From Bryopsis sp. KO-2023 (taxonomy: Eukaryota; Chlorophyta; Ulvophyceae; Bryopsidales; Bryopsidaceae), in assembly GCA_030272585.1 (NCBI GenBank), contig BSYQ01000005.1, positions 868,001 through 932,000 on the forward strand: a stretch of 64,000 bases of DNA, written 5' to 3'. Numbering within the stretch: the stretch's first letter is position 1; each line of letters starts with the position of its first letter. The notes beneath the pieces were generated by a model. The model did no database searches. It worked only from the letters and a program-made list of their open reading frames with translations, and had not been told where the DNA came from. This document shows positions 1-59,663 of the stretch, piece by piece. The translations under genes and the position numbers were made by a program.

Positions 1-1663
1 AGGAGAAATGTGACAGGCATTCCTGGGAACTGCGCTTATTATTTAAAAAATTGCTGGCCATTTTTAGTCGGGGATTTTTTTGTTTCATTTCAATGTAAAA
101 TATTGAGAGGAAAAAACCAGAATAAAACAAACATAAAATTCGATCCCATTTTTGCATTCCAAAAAGAAAAAAAATCGATGAACAATGCGCTCCGATTTCA
201 AAAAAAAAAAAAAAAAAAATTCTTCAAAAAAGAAAAGGGTAAAGTGCGGAATTTTCCCTCTGAAGCTATACTTAGTGGAAAGTCGACGAAACAAGGCCGG
301 CTGTCAAAACAATGTGAATTGAAAACACAAGGGAAAAGAAAGGGGGCGAGAAGGTGAAAAGAACCTACCGGATATGGGGGTCGAAAGAAATCTGTTAAAG
401 AAAAACCTTGGATCCTCCAATTCCCACCATTGCTTTTCTTGCGAGGCTGTGTTCGACTGGAGGTCTGCCTGGAGGTCAGAATTCCTTTCCGTGGAGAGAG
501 TGAGGTGCCCAGTGTAAGAAAAATATAAACCCCGGCCGTGCTGCTCTGGATTCAATGCTGACTTCAACAGCGAAAGGTATCTGAAAAATAAAATAAAAAT
601 AAAATAAAATAAAACCAGAAACATTCTTTGAAAAGAAAAAAAGCTTTTTTTGATGAGATGGAGATTTATGTGTAAAACGTGAAAAAAAAAACCCTGAATC
701 GTTGCTTTCCTTTAAGACTTGATCACGCTTACCTTAGCCAAGCTGAGAATTTCCAACATTGGTGTTTTTGTTTTTTGTTTTTTTTCTCTTCTTTTGTTCT
801 CGTTATTCATTTTTTTCTTCTTTTTGTTTTTTCCTAGCTAAATTTTCTGGCAATTTTCAGAAGCTATATAATATTCAAATAGAAAATAAAACAATTATTA
901 AAAAAAAATGAATTATTGATTGTCTGAGAAGTCAAATTGATTAAAAACAGAAAAAAAAAGATAATGATAATGCATAATCAAGCTTACTGTGCATCCTCGG
1001 GGAAGGCGCTACCATGCTCAGGCAGAATAAAATCTGTTTCAACGATGTGGAAAGCTGGATGCCCAACTACGGTCCCCATCTATATGAAATTTTCAGGAAA
1101 AGAAAAATACAAATTATGAAACTAACCAAAGAAAGCAAAAAATTGCATTGTGGAAAAAAAAAACATTCTTCAAAACTGGCCAAAAACAGCCAAAAAAAAG
1201 TGAATTGTGGGAAAAAATTACATTATTGAACTGACCAAAAAATGCAGAAAATTTGTATTGTGCTTTGGCATTAAAAAAAAAATTAAAAAATGTGTTGAGA
1301 ACAACAAGCGACCTCTTTCTGTTTTTTGTGGATAAGTTTTCATCTCTTTTTTAAATTTTCCAAAAAATTGACACAGTTTTGTTTTGTTGACACAGCTAAA
1401 AGAAGGGATCAAAAACAACTCACGTGATTCGTTGCTTTCACGATTGCCAACACAGCCATTCCTTTAAGCTTCATCACCCCGATTAACCCCGGCGACACCA
1501 AACAGTCCCTTTTCAATGCGGCTTGCCTCGACAGATCTACTTTCCCCGTTTTCAGATCCACTCGCAGCGTCGGAACGTTTTCCTCCGAATCCCGCAGAGG
1601 CTGAACCAGCGCGACATTTTGCGAGTTCCTGATCCGAACGCCAGGATAGGGGGCTTCGGGCAT
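1..1663 (-). CDS. SAC1-like phosphoinositide phosphatase, N-terminal part (runs off window)
   Basis: Multi-exon gene on the minus strand whose 5' end is in the window. Exon 1 is 1663-1424 (ATG at 1663, 80 codons, starting MPEAPYPG, donor GTGAGT). Exon 2 is 1079-988, acceptor ATATAG. Exon 3 is 580-369, acceptor TTTTCAG, donor GTAGGT. Splice phases agree (0, then 2 to 1). A further exon may begin at 29 and leave the window. Exon 1 carries the SAC-type stretch SPGLIGVMKLKGMAVLAIV, exon 2 has VVGHPAFHIVETDFI, and exon 3 has GRGLYFSY, GHLTLS and DPRFFFN, matching GLYFSY, DLTLS and DPRFVWN of SAC-domain proteins. Known family role: removal of phosphates from phosphoinositides, mainly PI4P, at ER/Golgi membranes. 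The catalytic CX5R motif and C-terminal membrane segments would lie outside the window. The family call is good; the subfamily is not resolved. Confidence 0.75.
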
Positions 1664-2865
1664 TTTTTCTTCTTCAATTTTTTTTTGTTTCCCGACTCCG
1701 AACTTCGTTTTCAAACAACTTTTGTATTTCTGGAGCAAGAAAGCAACAAGGCCCCATTCTTGAAAAAGTGAAAAAAGTGAGAAAAAGTGTGATCTTCTGT
1801 ATGTCAGTCTGTACTCCCAATTTTCTTTTTTTGGAAATTCGCCAACGGGGGGATGACACATTCCGCGTCAGACTTTCGTTTTCTTTTTTCAACGTTTTCT
1901 GGGATGCGGAGAAAAAAACGACGGAAGCGAAAGGAGGGAAAACCACCACGTCGACCATTACTGTCTCTCTTATTTCAAAGGTTTTATTTGGGCGTTCTTT
2001 TCGCAAAACCCCACACTGCCTGCCTGTTGAATGCAAAACGGCTCATTCTATTGTTTCGTACCAAGGTGCGCTCGCTATCCTTTCTCCTCCTTTGGGTTGT
2101 CTGTTTCCTTTTTTTGCATTTTTTTTACCCCTCCCTGTTCGCTCGCCGGTGGGCGGACGGACGGAATCATGTCGAGCTCACCAGTTTTTTCATTTCCACT
2201 TCTGGACTTTTTTTTATATATTTCTCGACCTTTCTTTCGGGAGTGGTTTTTTGTTTCGCGTTGCGGGCAAGAATGAACGTGGCTGAGGATTTTTGTGCAG
2301 GAGGGGCCAGGCGTCTGGTTGGCTGCCGCACTCGAAAGCCGTCCAGCGAGACCTCCACAGGCGCATTAATGATTTACTGAAAAGGTGAGAGTCGTTGCCG
2401 TGACGACGGGGGGTTTTCCGAACGAACGAAAACGCAAAAATCGTTTCCGAAAGCATTCCGATCTCGTCCTAGGGTATTGCCATCTTTTGCGACTTAGGGT
2501 TTTGGGTCGTCGAAAGGCGAAAGGGGGGGATGGGGGTTGGAAAACTGTGGGACGTCGGGTCAGGTCGTCTTGTCGCTGAGCTGTGGACTAGTGCTGCGCT
2601 CTTCGCCATTGTCGAAACGAAACCTTTCGAATTCGGGAAAGAGATCGTGACAGAGATAAAAGAAAAATTCTTTTTCCCTGTCCAAAACCCAGCCTTTCTC
2701 CAGGGTTTTTCCGGGACCTCCGTCAAACAGGGGGGTCCAACCCACGTTTGCAGATTTTCGGTTGGACCTAAATGTTCAGGATTTGGAAGAAGAAGAAGAA
2801 AACAAACACAACTGAAACACCTTTGAGACGGGATTTTGAGACGGGGTGGTGTCGGGTCGCTGCAG
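1664..2865. promoter_or_regulatory. Shared upstream region of two divergent genes
   Basis: This 1.2-kb stretch separates the start of the minus-strand SAC-like gene from the first recognisable exon of the plus-strand DUF3700 gene. It is probably a bidirectional promoter plus the missing first exon of the DUF3700 gene. Frames are open on both strands in places, but none gives a recognisable protein. No clear TATA box was identified. This is inference from gene arrangement. Confidence 0.35.
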
Positions 2866-3962
2866 TCGTTTCTACAAGAGTGGCGAAGATGGCGCCAGCT
2901 ATTTGTCCCCACCGAGTCCCGACGTCCAAGACGACTATCACCACGACCCAGAAACCGGAACCCACAAGCTCGTTTTACCAGGGGGCGCTGTATCGCTCCA
3001 ACACGGATGGTATGAGCTCGCCGGGGGGGTCTACAAGATGCAACCCTTTCTTTTCAGAACCGACAGGGCCGTGATCGTGTTCTACGGCTACCTGTCGAAC
3101 GTCGACGAGCTGCGACTGCGGATGGGGCTGCAGGTGGACAGCATTTTGACGAAGACGTCACCGCTGAGATGCGATCCGGGGAGTCTGACGGCCAGCACCG
3201 TGTTGCAGCTCTATCTTGACCGGGGAGGGAAGGATCCCATCGTTATGCTGTCCGACTTGCAGGTTGGTTTTTGATTGTTTGGTTGTCTGGTATCGTTCTT
3301 GCGAACACCTGAGAAATGGGGGTCGGACAAAAAGCCAGATAAAGCGCTCCTTGTTAGAACTTCGAACACCGGCGACGTTTTTTCTTTTAAGCGACTCACC
3401 AACGCTATTAGAATTGCTTGCGACCTTGCACTGCGCCTGCTCGCTCATTTCTTTTTTGCGCAAGGCCGGCCGCCATATTGAATGCCAGAAATGCCAGAAT
3501 CTACAAGCCTGAGAAACTTGGGAAATATACTTGCAGGGACAATACTCGTTCGTAATATACGACAGCGGAAACAAACAGGTGTTCGCCGCCCGCGACCCCG
3601 GTGGCAAGCAGCCGATCTATTACAGTCCGACGTCGGCTTTCGACAACGGGGTCGCGTTCACTGACGAGCCCCTCGACATTCCCAACGGCGAGGCGAAGTC
3701 CGACTGGGTCGAGATTCCTCCAGGACATTTCGTTTCCGGAAAGAACCCACGGCTTCAGCAATTCGCCTTGACCCCCGAACAGTTGCAGAGCAGGGAATCG
3801 ATGGAGATTTTTGACGAAGAATGGTGGGAATGCGCCAGCGGGGGGACGAGTCCCATCGGGGGTAGCTTCGGAGCGGGGGGTTTCGTGAGATCGCTCCAGA
3901 GGCGTCGGTCGCTGTTCAGCCGCCGCTCGACGGAGGAGCTCCCCAGCAGTCAGACTTTGTAA
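2866..3962 (+). CDS. DUF3700 / TSJT1-like (aluminium-induced type) protein, 5' exon unresolved
   Basis: Two exons are clear. The first runs from an acceptor GCTGCAG at 2859-2865 to 3262 and ends in SDLQ. The second runs 3537-3962 after TATACTTGCAG, starts GQYSFVIYDSGNKQVFAARD and ends at TAA. The join is phase 0. The protein has VIVFYGYLSNVDELRLRMG, then LQLYLDRGGKDP, then GQYSFVIYD, in the order seen in plant stem-specific TSJT1 / aluminium-induced proteins (DUF3700, a class-II glutamine-amidotransferase-like fold). The family's role is poorly known; it is stress- and hormone-responsive in land plants. No in-frame ATG precedes the conserved core, so a short first exon must lie upstream and was not located. 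The Ser/Arg-rich tail after about residue 240 looks lineage-specific. Confidence 0.65.
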
Positions 3963-23786: not shown

Positions 23787-25137
23787 ATTGGAAAATGGCA
23801 GTTTTGCTTTGGGTATCGTAAAACGTGTAACCTTGATTTGTTCTCCATCCCAGCGAATGGTCGTTCAGCCGAAACAAAAAGATCTACCCACATTGTTGAA
23901 GCAGCAAAGAAATGCTGGGGTACAGATAGAGGCCTCATAGGAGGGTGTCAGTAGTAAGACATATATTGATACCATTTGTTTTTTTGTATTATACATTTAT
24001 AATTTTGAGGTTTGACAGCTGATGCACAGTTTGATGCTCAATTAGTCACCAGCAGTGAGATGAAATGCACCATTGTAACACTCCACATTCCATTGAAAGA
24101 TCATGTTTCTAGCCCAGATTATATTTCCACAGAGGAGCATTGAAGGAATGATATCATATGAACACCACAGCTCCGGCTGAGTCGATGGACGGAAATGCAT
24201 TATGTTGCACAATTATTTGAACAAGAAATCAGGAAAGGGTAACCTGGAAGCAACTAGCAAAATTAATTAAATTTATTTTTTTATTTTTTTAACCCATGAG
24301 CATCCAAGAATAAATAACCGATCAGTGTGGAAATCACCCCCCCCATACATATTACTCATTGTAAAAGTGGAGGGGCATCAACACCCTCATGATGGGGAAC
24401 CCTTGTAAACAAAGCGCTCCCTCTTTTCTTTATGCTTCGTTCTCTAAATCAGTTGAACAAACATAAAAAAACTGGAAAATCCCACAATGGATGCCAAATT
24501 CTTCAAAACTCCCGCAAGATATTTCCTATTTCCAGCTTCTCTTTGGTATAAAATTTCTGAAAATTCTTTGCAACATGTTTCAACTGCTTGTAGCCTGATG
24601 CCATCTCCTTTGTCCTGTGCACAACTCCACATCAATGGAAAATGGCTAAACTGTAGCATATCTCCAGGAATGACTGTTCCAAGAAAATCCATACTTCCAA
24701 TTGTAGAAGCTCCCTGTTGAAGTGGGAAATCCGTGGAAAGACTCAAATGCTTCGAGTTTCATCACACTCAACATTCCTTGCCCATCAACCTGGTGGCACT
24801 TTTCCTCTTTTCACATGCACGCCTCATTAAATTTGTTCACCCTTCCTGCTTGCTGCTGTCATATTGACATTTCTGTCTGGTTGCTGGCTGCCAAAAATTT
24901 TTCGACTAGACTGATGACCGACTACTTTGGACTGATGACATACATTTGACAGGAGCAGAACTACGCTTACTAATCAATCAATGGTCCTAAATTTTACTAT
25001 TTTACATAATATGCATATCCGAGAGATGAAGGAAGGAATCAAAAAGGTAGAAGATGAAAATGCAAAAGATACCAAAGTTGGAACAGGAAAGCGCCCCGGG
25101 AGTCGAACCCAGCCAAGACCATCGCGCGTTACTTCAT
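23787..25137. other. Intergenic, nothing recognised
   Basis: This is the 3' flank of the NEK gene and spacer to the U2 gene. It is A/T-rich with scattered stops in all frames; short open frames such as 24487-24720 show no recognisable domain. Confidence 0.5.
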
Positions 25138-25330
25138 GGGTGCCCGATCACAGCGGTAGTGGAAGACCGCAACCACGCTGCGCAAGGCAGATGCAAGCAT
25201 CTGTTTACCCCCGCGCCCCATGAAAAATCGGCTTAATCGTTATAAGGGATCAAATAGATCCCATATCAGCGATTAAACTGATAAGAACAGATACTACACT
25301 TGATCTTAGCCAAAAGGCCGAGAAAGGTAT
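25138..25330 (-). ncRNA. U2 spliceosomal snRNA
   Basis: On minus the sequence begins ATACCTTTCTCGGCCTTTTG, the plant-type U2 5' end, and continues through GGCTAAGATCAAGTGTAG, then TATCTGTTCTTATCAG and TTTAATCGCTGATATG. It therefore contains stem-loop I and the GTAGTA branch-point-recognition segment. Stem IIa and a variant IIb (GGGATCTATTTGATCCC) follow. A GATTTTTCA Sm-type site lies near 25222, then stem III/IV-like hairpins (GATGCTTGCATC; GCGTGGTTGCGG). The 3' end is set from the usual length of about 190 nt and is approximate. U2 pairs with the intron branch site in the spliceosome. A T-arm-like GGGTTCGACTCCC follows about 30 bp beyond the 3' end (25098-25111), significance unknown. Confidence 0.92.
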
Positions 25331-50772: not shown

Positions 50773-51213
50773 AAACACCTGCGGGTGGTGATTTCTCGGC
50801 ATTTGTGATGGACCGATCAATTGACCGATCATGATCCGATCTAATCGGCATCTCCGATCCCGATCCCGACCCCGATCAAGCGCTGCGATCTGTCGGCACT
50901 TGATCGGCTGACGTTGATCGGTCTGATCGTGATCGGCCGATCAAAGTTGGCCGATTAAATCGGTCATCCGATCAGATTGGTGATCGGCCGATCTCCATCG
51001 ATGATCGGCCAAACCGATTTGATCGGCGATCGATCTGATCGGAAAAACCCGATCACGATTTAATCGGTCGGACCGATCAATCCACGACCGATTAGATCGT
51101 GATCGGATCCATAGTATGGATGTGACTTGGTGCGACCATCAGCAAGATTCTACAAAAGGAATAAGAGCTGCGTGGGCGAACAGCATGAACTCCCCCCCAC
51201 CAGATTTCCCACA

Positions 51214-54200
51214 ATGCGTGGGGCGAGCCCCAGAAAGACTCTTTTCGTCGTGGTGGCCGTGGCGGCGCTAATCGTTGCTGATGTCGATTCGCTCTCCGTA
51301 AGCCGTGGGCTGCTTGGGAAGAAACGAACAGGAAAAAAGAAAGAACCAAGAAGTGGGGTGCGGAAGGAGACGGGGATTGGGAAACAGAAAGAAAAAGAAC
51401 CTGGGCCAGGGAGAGAGAAGGAGAAAGAAAATGAGAAAGACATGGGGAGAGGCAAATCACCGGGTTCAGAAAAAACCAAAAAAGAAATGAGTGGGGCGGG
51501 GACGCAAGAAGAGAGCAAACCGACAGCGGAGAACGAGAAGGGCAACGGGGATAGAAATGATAACGGTAGCGGTAATGGTGATGGTAACGGTAACGGTAAC
51601 GGAAGGCGAAGGCGAAGGCGAAGACATGATGGTGATAGGGACGAGAAAGGCAACGACCTGCAGGAGATAAATCGGGGTGGGGATGATTCTGAAGGTGGGT
51701 TTGCTGAATTTGTTGGATTGAATGATAGGTAGTTCACCAATTAATTTATTGCTCTTGTCAATCTGAACCAAAAAAATTGGTTACAGAAGGAAGCCTTTAA
51801 CATAATTTTTGATTCGAAAAACCAGCATTAGAACAGGTGGCCACCCATTCCACCTTTATGGATCAATTTAGACAAAAATCTGTCTGCGCAGATGTTCGTA
51901 GTGTTATCATTCTGTCTGACGAGTCAAATTATCATTGTTTATTTTGGCTTTGGAGAAATTTCTGTTTAAACAGCCTCAGAACTACTCATCCATAAGATCT
52001 TTCTCATGGTGTGGATTCAGTGGAGTACCTGCTGTTGGTCATAAATCAGTACTGTCTCAGGAGACGATAATTATTCTGTGTTGCACAATTGAACAATGGC
52101 ATCCTGTTTTTTTTTGGGCGAAAGTGAATATGCATGAGAAAGATCGTATTGTTGGTCTAGTTTGAGTAAGAGAGTTTCGGCTGGCTCGGTTTCTTCACAT
52201 AGAAAACCTGATGTCTTGAGGTGAAACATAGTCGGCGGAACAAGATGTTAGTTTAAACTGCCTAAAATTTTAGGCACCGAAACGCATGTCAGACTGTTGA
52301 AAAAGATTGATTTGTGAGGCGATTGCAGCATCGTCCTTTTCTGGTGGAAATGAAGAGGGAATTACTGGGCAACCCAGAAAGGCTGAAAAGGATGGAGACA
52401 ACAGGGGAGCTGAGCAACAGTGCCGGTCGAATGATTCTGGCTGTCGAGACAGTGCGGGTTCTCCTGATGAGCCGGTGGCACCACCTGATCCAAGTGATCC
52501 ACTGCCACAGACCACAATTATGGCATCACTTGTTGTGGACGGGAGTGGGACTGAGGAAGAACCTCCAAATCCATCAGCACCGTCACCTCCCTCTGCTTCA
52601 GCTCCCGCTCCTGCTCCTGACACTAGGAAAAAAGACCCACTTTCACACTCGCCTACACTCGCCTACACTCGTTCCAAACTCGCTGACCCAATGAACACCG
52701 CTCCACACTCGTGGACACCATCGACAATTTCCAACCTTTGATGCAACTTTCATCCACACTCGTGCACACTCAGTGTACACTCGTGAACACCATCGACACT
52801 CAACAACACCTGGTGTAACTTTCATCCACACTCGTGCACACTGAGTGCACACTACTGAAACCATCGACACTCAACAACACCTGGTGTAACTTTCATCCAC
52901 ACTCGTGCACACTCAGTGTACACTCGTGAACACCATCGACACTCAACTACACTTGATGTAACTTTCATCCACACTCGTGCACACTGAGTGCACACTACTG
53001 AAACCATCGACACTCAAAAACACCTCATATTACTTTCATTCACACTTGTGCACACTCCTGAGGCTGGAAGTCACAGTGACTCAGCTTCAGGGCAGGCCTG
53101 CCCTAGGGTACCTTGCACCGGTGCACAAGCCTACTTAAGTGGCTTGAGTTTTGAACTCAAAAATCACTCGTCACATAGGATGTCTTCGATAGGTGAGCAC
53201 GTACAGGAGTCGAGGACTTGGTGTGATATCTCTTGATGGGAATTTTGGGTCGGTCACTTCTTCTGTTACTAGAATCCAAATTGGAAGTTGTGGTTTTTCA
53301 GGTGCGAGGGCAGCCACTGTCCGAGGACATAAGTGCGGCATCACATGGAACTCGGCCACACCGTCGCAGTCGGACCCATCCAGAAAATTGTGTCCCTTTT
53401 GCAACAATGGATATGGGAAATCTCGATGGCATGAACATACTCGCAAGTCGTCGGAATGTTTCACCCACTCGTTTCCATGGAAACTTACTTGGAAACGCGA
53501 TTCCATCACGCTTCCCTGGAAACGACACGTTTCCAAATTCGTATCCAGAGGGAAACAACACGTTGCCAAGTACGTTTCCAGGGAAACAACACGTTTCCAA
53601 TTCACATCCAGGGAAACATCACCATCGCATCTTCGTCGTCGGAATGTTTGATGCCGTCGTTTCCGTGGAAATACGACACCTTTCACTTCATGTTCGACTG
53701 AACACGATTCCCAAAATTTTCAGCCCTCAAAGCATCGCGCGCAGTCCCTCGACTGGGTGGGTGCCGCAGTCTCGGCGGGTTCGATGGCGCCGCCGTTCTG
53801 AGGGACCCAAGCGCCCCAAGCAAAAATCGAGGACGACTTCGCCTGTCGGTTATTCAACAGTGTCGCGCTGGGCTTCGAGCCCATGGATCGGAAGGGGAGT
53901 GCATCAGGTTTCTCAGTGTGGAAAAAAGAAGGAAACTGATGAAGCAATGGTGAAAACAGAGAATATGCTATCATTCCATAGCAAGCCCGGTTGTGATAAG
54001 GGAGTATGTGAGAGCCCAGTTCAGAAGCAGGCAAGTGAATACCAAAGCTTTCCTGTAGAGGAAAGGGGAGCCTGAAGGTGAAAGTGGGATCGTGCGGACT
54101 GCGATCAAAACAGCAGATGAGGTAGATAAAATACTAAGAAGATTAGTTGTTGATGTTGCTACATGTCGTGCTCGTTTATTTATGTATGGGATATATTGAT

Positions 54201-57200
54201 CTACAAATTTGAATTTTATTTTCCTTCTTTCTGCAACAACGTAAGTTTTCAGTGAAATAGCTGAAAGAAATAGGCACAATAGCTGACTTGCACAAGATAA
54301 TACCTGTTTTGAAGTGAATCAGTCCAGTCAATTGTTTCTTGATTGCAGCATGTTTTGGGATGACGGGGTGTACTACGCTTGATATCCTGGAAATATTGGT
54401 ACTGTCATCTAATTCTTTATATGGGAGGGGAGTTTGTTGATTGAGAATTTATGAAGAATGTACATTCACCCATTCCTTTACTTTTTTCCAACTTGTTACA
54501 TCTACTAGTACCTTGGATTTTGTTTTCAGACCTGCCATGTATTATTATATCAAGAGCTCACACATTGCCTGTCAGGCAGGTGGAAGTCATGCGGCTAACG
54601 AGGATTTCCTGCAAAGGAAATTCTCGAAAGGAAATTGCAGCAGCTGGTGGTGGAGTGCAGGAAACTGAGCCTTGCCGTTCAAACTTCCCTTCCCATCTCA
54701 ACGGTAACACCAGTTCCCCAATCTATTGGATGAATCTGTTTTTTTCTTCTTCCCAAAATCGTTACATCAATCGTGTTCATCCTCTAAATCAATATCCCAG
54801 TAACTGCTGCACCGTTCAGTCCTGTGAATTCGCTAAGAATCCTAAACACCAATAACCCCACTTGAGATCCTTTTATCCAGCATATGCAAACTCTAGCCCA
54901 CAACTGAACAACCTTTCCCATTGAACACCCAGCCAAATATTCGGACTAGTATCTTTTTCTTTCTCGTTCAATATTTCCAGAGTAATGTTCTTTTCCCTCC
55001 ACTCCATAACTTATTAAACTATAGCTCTTGAAGTGCATTTTCCCGCATTTTCCCTCATTAAAAAATATGTTTTAAAGCTCCTTCCACACGAAAGGAGTTG
55101 CATGAAAAATTATAAGCTCCGTTACGTTGGCCGGAGATGCCTTGTTGGCTGTTGATGGTGTGCCCACATTAAAATTGACTCCCTATGAAGCTGGTGAGAA
55201 GCTGCAAGGCATTGCAGGTACTGAGGTGAGCTGGACTTCAAGGAACCCTCTTGAGTGAGGAATGAATGACGAGGAGTGAGGTGTAGCTGAATAACATCGT
55301 TTTAATTCTCAGGTGGGTCTGACACTGAAAACTCGATCGGAGCCGCCCAGGGATGTTGTCTTGAAGAGGTACGATAGGAGTTTCGTATGTTGCTGCTCTT
55401 CTTATTCGGCGTTTGTACGTGAGTCCAAAAAAAAAAAAAAAAACAATTGTCAAAAAACAATTATCACTTTGTTTTTGTTTTTTTTCCCCTTTTTTTCCCC
55501 AGCCAAGCTGCGGAGGCGGAAGATGCAGGGGCGATGAGTCATTTGGGCCACATGTATGCGAATGGCCTGGGGGTCGAACAGAACAACAAGACTGCTTTGA
55601 AGTGGTTTGAGAAAGGTGCCGGGGAGGGGCACCCCAACGGTTATTATGGACTGGGCTAAATGTACCTCGCAGGCTACGGAGTCAAAAAAGATTTACAGAA
55701 AGCTCTCTGATGGGAAGAGCAGAAAGCTCTCTGAGGAAAGTGAGGAGGTGGAATCAAGAAGAGACTTGAGCAATCCTTATTGCGGGTTGCCTCTGAAGGC
55801 CATTTGGGTATTATTCATTCGAATATGCAACTCGTAAGAGTTTTTGCAGATGGTGCATAGCTTTTTGAGAGAGTGTTTAGGGTGATGGTGGAGTTTTGGG
55901 AAGTGAGTTTTGGGTGGGATGGGACTGGGAGAGTGATTGCAACAGGGGATGATGGGAGGGAGAGGGATTGTAGTAACTCTTATGTAATGATTGTATATTT
56001 CATTATGCGTGCATGGTTTTAAAATGGAATCTCTCATGCGTTATTGTCGTGTAATTGGGATCTACACGTCGGCCACATCAATGTCAACTCGAATGTACAC
56101 TCGGGTGCACACTGGTGTCACACCAAGTGTACACTCGATGTCAACGAGTGTACACCAAGTCCGATCTACACTCGAGTGCACACCAGTGTGACACCAGTGT
56201 GCACCCGAGTGTAGATCGGACTTGGTGTACACTCGTTGACATCGAGTGTACACTCGCTGGTTTTTTCCTAGTGTGATCCTCCCTTTCCCCCTGGCCCTCC
56301 CTTTCCTCCAGGTCCTCCATTCCCTCCTGGCCCTCCCTTTCCTCCCGGTCCTCCGTTCCCCCCTGGCCCTCCATTTCCTCCCGGTCCCCCATTCCCTCCA
56401 TTCCCTCCAGGGCCTTCTCCTCCACCATCGCCTCCCAGTCCGCCTCCCAGTCCGCCTCCCGGTCCGCCCCCCAGTCCACCTCCCGGTCCGCCCCCCAGTC
56501 CGCCTCCCAGTCCACCTGCCGGTCCGCCTGCCGGTCCGCCTTCTGATCCACCACCTACGCCACCTAATCCTCTCCCTTCATCTGGTTCTGCTCCGCCTCC
56601 ACCTCTACCTCCACCTGCACCTCCGCCTGAAGTTCCTTCTGATACCCTGAGTGCATCGGAGCAATTAGGTTTTGCTGTTAGGAGTGGGGATTTCACTGAA
56701 GTTGCCAAAGTCCTGAATGAAAATGATGACGTGACCCTTCTAGCTGAAGGATTCAGATTTTCTCCAGATGGTAATGCAAGTTGGTTCCAAACTTTTCATT
56801 AAAAAGCTTCCTGTGAAAAGTGTGAGGTTTGTTAACACCACGACTGCGATACAAAGCCTCCAACAAAGAACATCCTGAACCAGAGTAAAAGAAAGATATC
56901 TTTTTTTAAATAAAAAAATGCAAAGAAAAGAAAATCCACATCTTTAAATTTGTGCATTCTCCCTATTGTTTCTCCCTATAGAAACAAAAAAAAATGTATA
57001 TTAGCTATCTTAATCCTCAAAATGTGTCGGTTTCGAGAAATTAGATCATCAATTACATCACCTTGCGTTCTTTTGGTTCTCATATGAAAAGATTTTTTAA
57101 TGCATTTTTGAATTTTTACCCTATGTGTGTTTTGTACGTAGATTCCATTCTGAAAAGAACTTCTGATCGGCTCAAGGATGGAGATGTTGTGACCATCAAG

Positions 57201-59663
57201 GGGTTGGCTCAATCTGCGCTGGACACTGGGCGATCCTCAAAGTTGGCTGGGGTGATGGCCAGATCAGTTTTGCCAGGTTGAGTTTCTCTCCAGTGAAATC
57301 AGTTTTTCTAGGTTGAGTTTCTTTCCTGTGAAATCAGTTTTGCCTGGTTGAGTTTCTTTCCACAATTGACCCCACTTATTCACAAGACAGCTGACCTGAT
57401 CAAGTGCATCAGCCATGAAGTTTGTTTTTGCCCCACAGGGTGTTTTGAAGTCAATCAAAACCATTTGAAAGCTTTTACAAACCATCAGATCCTCAAAGAG
57501 GATTCGATTTGAGCTGTGTGGATGACTGGAATGCACCCATGAATCGCATTGAATCCTTATTCTGTGTTTCTGGGGTGTCCTTTTGCCTGGATTGCTTTTC
57601 TTATTTTTAGTGTTGCTTGGTGTTATCCCAGACAAGCCATTTGATCAGGCTCTGCTTGCATATGCCATGAGTGGCATACTGAGCAATCGAGAGTTGATGC
57701 TAAGTATCATCCAAGCAGATCCCACATCCCAGGTATGTGTGCAATTGTCTGCTTGCGCCTAAATCTAAACTTACTGCAGGAAAAATAAAAATAAACTTTG
57801 CAAGACGGCCTGCAGCCTTGTGTTTTTTCCCTTCCAAGAAAGCAGATTTTCACTGCTTGAGGAATAGTTGACCGAAAGCGTGGGGTTGTGGTAAAAAAAA
57901 TTAACACATATCAAAAAATGAATCCTACTTCAACAGCACATTTCAAACAGGAGCCTCGACAAGATAGGGAAAAGAAATGGAACAGAAGCTCTTCAAAGGT
58001 TTTTTCTTTTAGGTTTCACAAAAGAAATTCGGCAGCAGAGCGCTCATTGATCAGTTTGTGAGGGGTTTTTTGTCGTAATGAATAGAAAGGGGAAAATGGA
58101 ATGAGAAACTTGTATAAGCAAATTCTTTCATTCAGCTCCCCCCCCGGATTTAAACTGGAACTAACCACAGATACTATGGAGCTGTGTTGCATTTGTTGAA
58201 TCCTCACTTTTTCTTTCATCTATATAAATGAATTGGCTAAATCACCTCGTTTAATACGGCTTTCGTTGGGTAAGTTTGCACATGTTCGTGAACATTCATT
58301 CAAAAATAGATAGATTAAAAAAAAATCCTTATTTTTATCTTAAGCAGTTGATTCTGTTATTTCTTCTTTTTTCTGCAGTCAAGTGCCTCTACCACAGGGC
58401 GTCGACTCACTTGCGATTCTTGCAGCCCCGTAGACTCCACCGTTTGCGCCAGCTGCTGGGCTCAAGATGTATGCTCCCCCATGTTTTGGTGTCCATGATA
58501 TTCAGGGATGAACTAATTATCTTTCGAGTTTATATCAAAAAAGAAAAAAATAAAAAAGCATGATTTTTTAAATCTTGACGTCTGTTCATCAAGATTCCTC
58601 AATTTTGAAATTTCTTAATATGATTTATCGGGAGTGTCGATTCACCAAAGGCAAATAGTTGCCTTCTGTCTGACAGGCAGGGTTTTCAAATTTTATTATT
58701 AAAGGGAAAAAAAATTGTTATGCTGATGTTGATGCATTTTCGATGTTTTGGAAGGGCGTCAGTCATCGTTTCATTAGTCATCTTTATGTAGATCATGAGT
58801 TGGTATTTCGATGCAATTGGCAACAAATGCCATTGCTTAATGCCAAGAATATGCGTGATTTTTAAAACAGGAAGGATTTTCTCAGAAAAAAGCTGGCTCG
58901 ATATTTTGATCATTTCTGAGGTTGGGGGAGTTGGGGTGGAGGGTATTTTGATATGAGAAATTTTTCAATGAGATGTCCATAGATGGGGCGCTCCAGGCAC
59001 TGGCTGCAACATATTGCTAATCCCTGACTCCCTAAAGCAGCGTTGGCCAGTTGAACTTAAGTTCCAGGGGAAACAGTAGGTTCGGTGCTTAATGGAAAGC
59101 AGCAGTTCTACAAAAGAACCTCCATCTTTTTTTGGGGGTGGGGGTGGGGGGGGGGACTTACAAAATATGTTGAATCAATGGAATTGGTCCAGTTGAGGGG
59201 TTTCATGCCTGCTTGGTGTCGAGCCTTTTTTTCATTCTGTTTCTCGGGAGGGGGGGGGGGGGCAGTCCACCTCCATATAATTTTTAAACACAAGGGAAAA
59301 AATTGTTGATGTGGGAACGTCAAGTTATTGGTTACTTGGATCACTGTGGCGGGGGGGGGGTTCGACTTACTTTACGCTTTGATCGATTGATGTTTGGGAT
59401 GCAATATTAGAGAATAACTATTCAGGAAACACACCCATAAACAAACTCCATGTGATTTAGAGGCATTCATTGGAGGGTAATTGTAGGCGAAAGCAAAAAA
59501 AAAATTCTGGAATGTTTCGATATTGGTATCGAAGTGGAGCCATGATTTCAGTGTTGGGTCTTGTTGCATCAAATAATTCTGATCTTCGAGACCAAATCGT
59601 GGGATCCCAGTCCAATGGGGGACCCTTTTGTTTTGGCGGTTTTTTGTTGTTGTATTATTCAAA

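Follow-up and report, generated by a model that had tools for sequence, protein, structure and literature searches.

Interrupted gene and inserted element

The window analysed here is a 64,000-nt stretch of the genome of the green alga Bryopsis sp. KO-2023 (contig C5:868001–932000), and genome-wide searches covered 91.09 Mb in 28 contigs. The window contains a gene for a predicted secreted proline-rich protein, whose signal-peptide-like start was judged by eye, and the second exon of this gene is interrupted by an element with the ends of the CACTA (EnSpm) superfamily. The two ends, CACTAGGAAAAAA and TTTTTTCCTAGTG, are perfect 13-bp terminal inverted repeats (TIRs) starting with CACTA, the trinucleotide TGA stands on both outer sides as a target-site duplication (TSD), and the subterminal regions carry direct and inverted repeats (Table 1). 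We assign a probability of about 0.9 to the reading that a CACTA transposon of the Pack-CACTA type, non-autonomous and carrying gene fragments, is inserted in host exon 2; that it is an insertion is shown by its TIRs, the duplications and the empty sites described below.

Exons 1–3 of the host gene agree in phase, and two later exons are open. Joining position 52620 to 56277 gave a single frame (...APAPAP-D-PPFPPG...) that continues as far as 56770, whereas the left part of exon 2, if unspliced, runs 40 codons into the element before a stop and the right-hand frame meets a TAG within the 3' TIR. As judged from these frames, the insertion interrupts the reading frame of this gene copy within exon 2, and the full-length protein has probably been lost from the interrupted copy. 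A sequence-only reading of this stretch had proposed the CACTA-type TIRs, the TGA duplication, gene-fragment cargo and an exon whose frame is restored when the element is removed; all four proposals held, and likely source genes of the cargo were located on C3 and C16.

Exact genome-wide matches to the 13-base TIR numbered 20, against 13 for the reversed control, and were rejected as a family count, being near the control level and largely due to chance. The count was therefore based on the 26-bp 5' end, which gave 10 matches (nine without mismatch and one, on C20, with three) and none in the reversed control.

Table 1 Features of the interrupted gene, the element and its family copies. Positions are those of the window unless a contig is named; element position 1 is window position 52621.
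Feature	Position	Strand	Remark
Host exon 1, coding part	51214..51694	+	signal-peptide-like start (by eye); donor AAG/GTGGGT
Host exon 2, left part	52329..52620	+	
TSD TGA, left copy	52618..52620		read in the sequence
Pack-CACTA-like element, 3,653 bp	52621..56273	+	family copies with matching ends
5' TIR CACTAGGAAAAAA	52621..52633	+	
5' subterminal array	52704..53057	+	72-bp period, 4.9 copies
Motif GTCGGAATGTTT	53450..53461; second at 53638	+	found at the start of the Plavaka-bearing repeat and of its deleted relatives
Plavaka-related fragment	53760..53950 (element 1140–1330)		95–96% to 3 of 4 Plavaka-related repeats compared
Plavaka-related fragment	54518..55128 (element 1898–2508)		94% to all 4 of the same repeats
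Captured S41 (CtpA-like) protease segment	55126..55428 (element 2506–2808)	+	94% to C3:8048639–8048936
S41 exon pieces	55127–55225 and 55313–55368	+	intron between
Captured SEL1L-like segment	55478..55703	+	whole segment 97% to the old C5 copy
Sel1 exon	55503–55659	+	TAA at end
3' subterminal near-perfect palindrome	56121..56259		69-nt arms, 93% complementary
3' TIR TTTTTTCCTAGTG	56261..56273	+	
TSD TGA, right copy	56274..56276		
Host exon 2, right part	56277..56770	+	proline-rich repeats
Host exon 3	57142..57276	+	phase agrees with exon 2
Downstream host exon	57611..57732	+	open
Downstream host exon	58379..58468	+	open
Copy C5a	C5:341488–345250		TSD ACT, perfect
Window copy	C5:920621–924273		TSD TGA, perfect
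Copy C7	C7:2006630–2011639		TSD TAA, perfect
Copy C13	C13:681052–683811		TSD AAC, perfect
Copy C15	C15:1254024–1259163		TSD AGT, perfect
Copy C2, 2,752 bp	C2 from 926932		variant ends CACTACGAAAAACG; flanks ACG/TGA, no TSD

Paralogues and empty sites

The left flank matched C5:828122–829609 at 93% identity, up to two bases short of the insertion, and the match to the right flank follows on at the same locus. This paralogue, 92 kb away, is uninterrupted: a single frame stays open from PPSAPAPAPGPPFPPG across the proline repeats, and no stop was present in any of its exon pieces compared. Over six exon pieces together, 19 synonymous differences in 303.9 sites and 21 non-synonymous differences in 956.1 sites (sums made by hand) correspond to a synonymous divergence (Ks) of ~0.065, a non-synonymous divergence (Ka) of ~0.022 and a Ka/Ks of ~0.34. 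Constraint is uneven, exon 1 alone having a Ks of 0.010 and a Ka of 0.011, with 27 gap letters. Two further partial relatives on C5 matched two of the six exon pieces in the stretches searched. A ~120-bp repeat at 51000–51124, directly upstream of the duplicated gene segment, occurs at 97–100% identity in at least 39 other places (40 of 214 candidates scored).

Empty sites were also sought with joined flanks, for the C7 copy only, using a 240-base query that retained one TAA. Among the ten matches listed, three places matched positions 1–240 at 98–99% and three further places matched positions 1–239 at 95–96%; the remaining four matches are partial, two of them being the C7 flanks themselves. 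The empty sites located are paralogous, not allelic.

Captured gene fragments and internal repeats

The element carries pieces of two host genes located elsewhere in the genome, an S41 protease gene on C3 (for which "CtpA-like" is our own label) and a SEL1L-like gene on C16. The protease capture comprises part of one exon, the intron and the next exon, and in the C3 gene the exons adjoining the matched stretch carry Peptidase_S41. Window positions 55490–55703 (element 2870–3083) are 94% identical to the C16 gene, which encodes Sel1 repeats and whose top PDB match is "Sel1 repeat protein", the next four being "Protein sel-1 homolog 1". The two segments meet within intron sequence, and ~50 bases there match neither gene. 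The captured exons retain their GT/AG sites, and splicing the exon pieces there keeps the phase and reads 103 residues to the TAA. In this fusion Pfam detected Sel1 (7.1e-9) and two PDZ models under their cut-offs (0.0023 and 0.015). The TAA is present in all four young copies of the family; at this place TAC stands in the old C5 copy, in the C2 copy and in the C16 gene. Further pieces of this SEL1L-like stretch occur on C13, on C2 and in a degraded copy at C5:1.154 Mb; the last covers the positions of the others almost entirely, and the C13 piece has no position in common with the window piece. Since four element structures carry parts of a single stretch, one ancestral capture is most likely.

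Besides the two fragments listed in Table 1, element positions 1112–1417 are 94% identical to C2:5737890. The repeat at C6:256001–265500 carries a Plavaka-type transposase and starts with GTCGGAATGTTT, and its internally deleted relatives are 98% identical.

The last 260 nt of the six family copies folded as RNA at −107 to −184 kcal/mol, with a long stem in five of the six; in the C15 copy the palindrome arms are split by a nested insertion. A shuffle comparison, made for the window copy only, gave −118.6 kcal/mol for a 151-nt stretch against a shuffle mean of −45.7 (z −17.2). The stem sequences differ between family members, and a long stem kept despite this suggests arm homogenisation or selection. 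What is most unusual about the element is the hybrid intron, which preserves the phase, and the near-perfect palindrome at its 3' end.

Family copies and their age

A DNA search of the genome gave 55 matches from 34 candidates scored, and genome-wide pairing of TIRs yielded six TIR-to-TIR copies, the window copy included. The sequence-only reading had made 3-bp duplications at other copies a test of the family; five of the six have a perfect duplication of their own, and on this point the C2 copy departed from the expectation.

Over element positions 470–3430 (~2,950 aligned sites), substitutions between the window copy and copies C5a, C7 and C15 number 9, 7 and 7, respectively, and no substitution separates C7 from C15 in 2,945 sites. 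Divergence among these young copies is thus 0.00–0.30%, a count that omits gap columns, the subterminal arrays and the nested C7 insertion and excludes the C13 and C2 copies. The window copy, with seven private changes against two in C5a and none in C7 and C15, has diverged furthest of the four but is young all the same; the claim that the insertion is recent was sustained by these counts. That four copies, almost identical and each flanked by a TSD of its own, stand at four different sites indicates that the element probably moved as a unit after cargo capture. The C7 and C15 copies contain nested insertions of 1,347 and 1,408 bp with TG..CA ends, resembling solo long terminal repeats and flanked by the 5-bp duplications TGGTG and GAGTG.

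Search for a transposase

No transposase domain was detected in any of the 24 stop-to-stop frames of at least 60 aa in the element (Pfam, E up to 0.01), consistent with an element lacking a transposase of its own. Sel1 alone passed its cut-off, a zinc-ribbon match lying far below its own, and genome-wide profile matches to PF02992 and PF18759 included none inside the element. Transposase_21 gave two matches in the genome, both at one locus on C12, against 19 Plavaka matches; a protein search with the longest C12 open frame returned one further weak match, on C10. The C12 locus was rejected as an autonomous copy, as no TIRs like CACTAGGAAAAAA were present in the 9.1 kb examined for CACT...AGTG pairs at least 2.5 kb apart.

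Interpretation and alternative explanations

We propose that a CACTA-type transposase supplied in trans would have brought the element to its 3-bp target within exon 2. The cargo derives from two or more host genes, which lie on different contigs, as well as from Plavaka-bearing repeats; the SEL1L-like capture most likely occurred once, in an ancestor whose descendants may then have been reshaped by deletion and further capture.

Several observations weigh against this reading. The search revealed no autonomous element that bears these TIRs, and in the 9.1 kb around the C12 locus the sole CACT...AGTG pair that passed the test, among pairs at least 2.5 kb apart, is weak (10 of 16 positions matching) and unlike this TIR. 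The C2 copy, flanked by ACG and TGA, has no TSD. Four more 5' ends (on C4, at C2:1.98 Mb, at C3:1.37 Mb and on C20) have no convincing 3' end, the candidates tried being only matches with two or three mismatches to the 13-base TIR. The SEL1L-like piece was not seen in the stretches examined around these four ends, where open frames of at least 100–110 aa were read by eye only. Because the repeat length of the paralogue is different at the insertion point, its empty site does not agree to the base; it supports the insertion without reproducing the exact site.

The mover might have been a Plavaka-type rather than a Tnp2-type transposase, as the excess of Plavaka matches over the single Transposase_21 locus and the Plavaka-related fragments inside the element would allow. 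We regard this as unlikely, since the Plavaka-bearing repeat starts with GTCGGAATGTTT and not with CACTAGG, and the internal fragments look like cargo. A different question is whether the gene is inactivated at all. Some maize dSpm alleles are reported to have the element spliced out as an intron. In soybean, fragments within a CACTA element are spliced (PMC1947982). Here the 3' TIR end resembles a splice acceptor (TTTTTTCCTAG/TG, the slash marking the splice point) in a phase that suits the downstream frame, and the captured exons keep their GT/AG sites, so that the element could in principle act as a new intron. Only 3 of the 15 GT sites in the open frame, however, are in the needed phase, and all three, which lie inside exon 2, are poor donors by eye. 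The 3' TIR is accordingly a weak candidate for an exon-restoring acceptor, and we consider such splicing very improbable.

The host locus may be a dispensable duplicate in which the insertion was close to neutral, given the similar uninterrupted paralogue, the two partial relatives likewise on C5 and an exon 1 that shows no constraint against the paralogue. The other modelled exons are nevertheless open, exons 1–3 agree in phase, and Ka/Ks over the six exon pieces points to constraint; we hold near-neutrality to be a tentative possibility at less than even odds. For the Pack-CACTA-type family itself, a more speculative extension is that it is now shuffling exons: the PDZ–Sel1 fusion of 103 residues might be transcribed from recently moved copies, together with small RNAs from the 3' hairpin, with the family itself and the two donor genes (protease and SEL1L-like) as possible targets. 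We think it rather improbable that all of this takes place.

Other features of the genome

A U2 spliceosomal RNA gene occupies window positions 25135–25330 on the minus strand. The plastid contig C28 is 91,672 bp long; its psaA gene (C28:26106–30404) is split by ~2.1 kb that resemble an intron, and a single in-frame TAG is present in the second piece. The psaB product of C28 differs from chain B of 6IGZ, a structure from Bryopsis corticulans (PMC7889890, PMC9931709), at 8 of 720 residues, as counted by eye, which places the host in Bryopsis or near it.

Relation to known elements and significance

Pack-CACTA elements have been described in Arabidopsis, rice and maize (PMC8903248; Catoni 2019 as cited there), and tandem insertion followed by joint mobilisation has been put forward as a capture model (PMC8903248, PMC13317346). 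The Bryopsis element shares with them CACTA-type TIRs, TSDs, the lack of a transposase, cargo from several host loci and low copy number (PMC8903248). Unlike the plant elements, it resides in a green alga, has the ends CACTAGGAAAAAA and a long 3' palindrome, and includes pieces of another transposon in its cargo. Tgm-Express1 of soybean, which carries five gene fragments that are spliced, is likewise a CACTA element within a host gene, with unrelated gene fragments and retained splice sites; it lies in an intron, whereas the Bryopsis element lies in an exon and two host-gene sources were found for it (PMC1947982). Captured fragments are also carried by CACTA elements of Chenopodium (PMC8978399).

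Among algae, Idaten of Volvox is cited as a CACTA element (PMC4158355), and Jordan of Volvox, whose ends are reported as a source of microRNA, is called En/Spm- and CACTA-like (PMC5093975). These are green-algal CACTA or En/Spm-like elements like the present one, and the citing passages mention no gene-fragment cargo for either (PMC4158355, PMC5093975). The word "alga" does not occur in the main text of PMC8903248 or in PMC13317346, and no report of an algal Pack-TYPE or gene-fragment CACTA element, in Bryopsis included, appeared in the titles and abstract openings searched, which covered few subscription papers. The sequence-only reading had called the element an unusually clear example outside flowering plants: clear it is, and in a green alga, but the Volvox elements show that a CACTA-type element outside flowering plants is not unusual in itself (PMC4158355, PMC5093975). 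The Bryopsis element works like Pack-CACTA and shows most of its distinguishing features, and represents a new lineage for a known kind of element.

Gene-capturing CACTA elements are now extended to a siphonous green seaweed, in which one genome shows near-identical sister copies and empty sites along with a hybrid intron and the likely source genes of the cargo. This alga regenerates readily, and should the family still be mobile, it would allow gene capture and exon shuffling to be examined in an organism other than a land plant.

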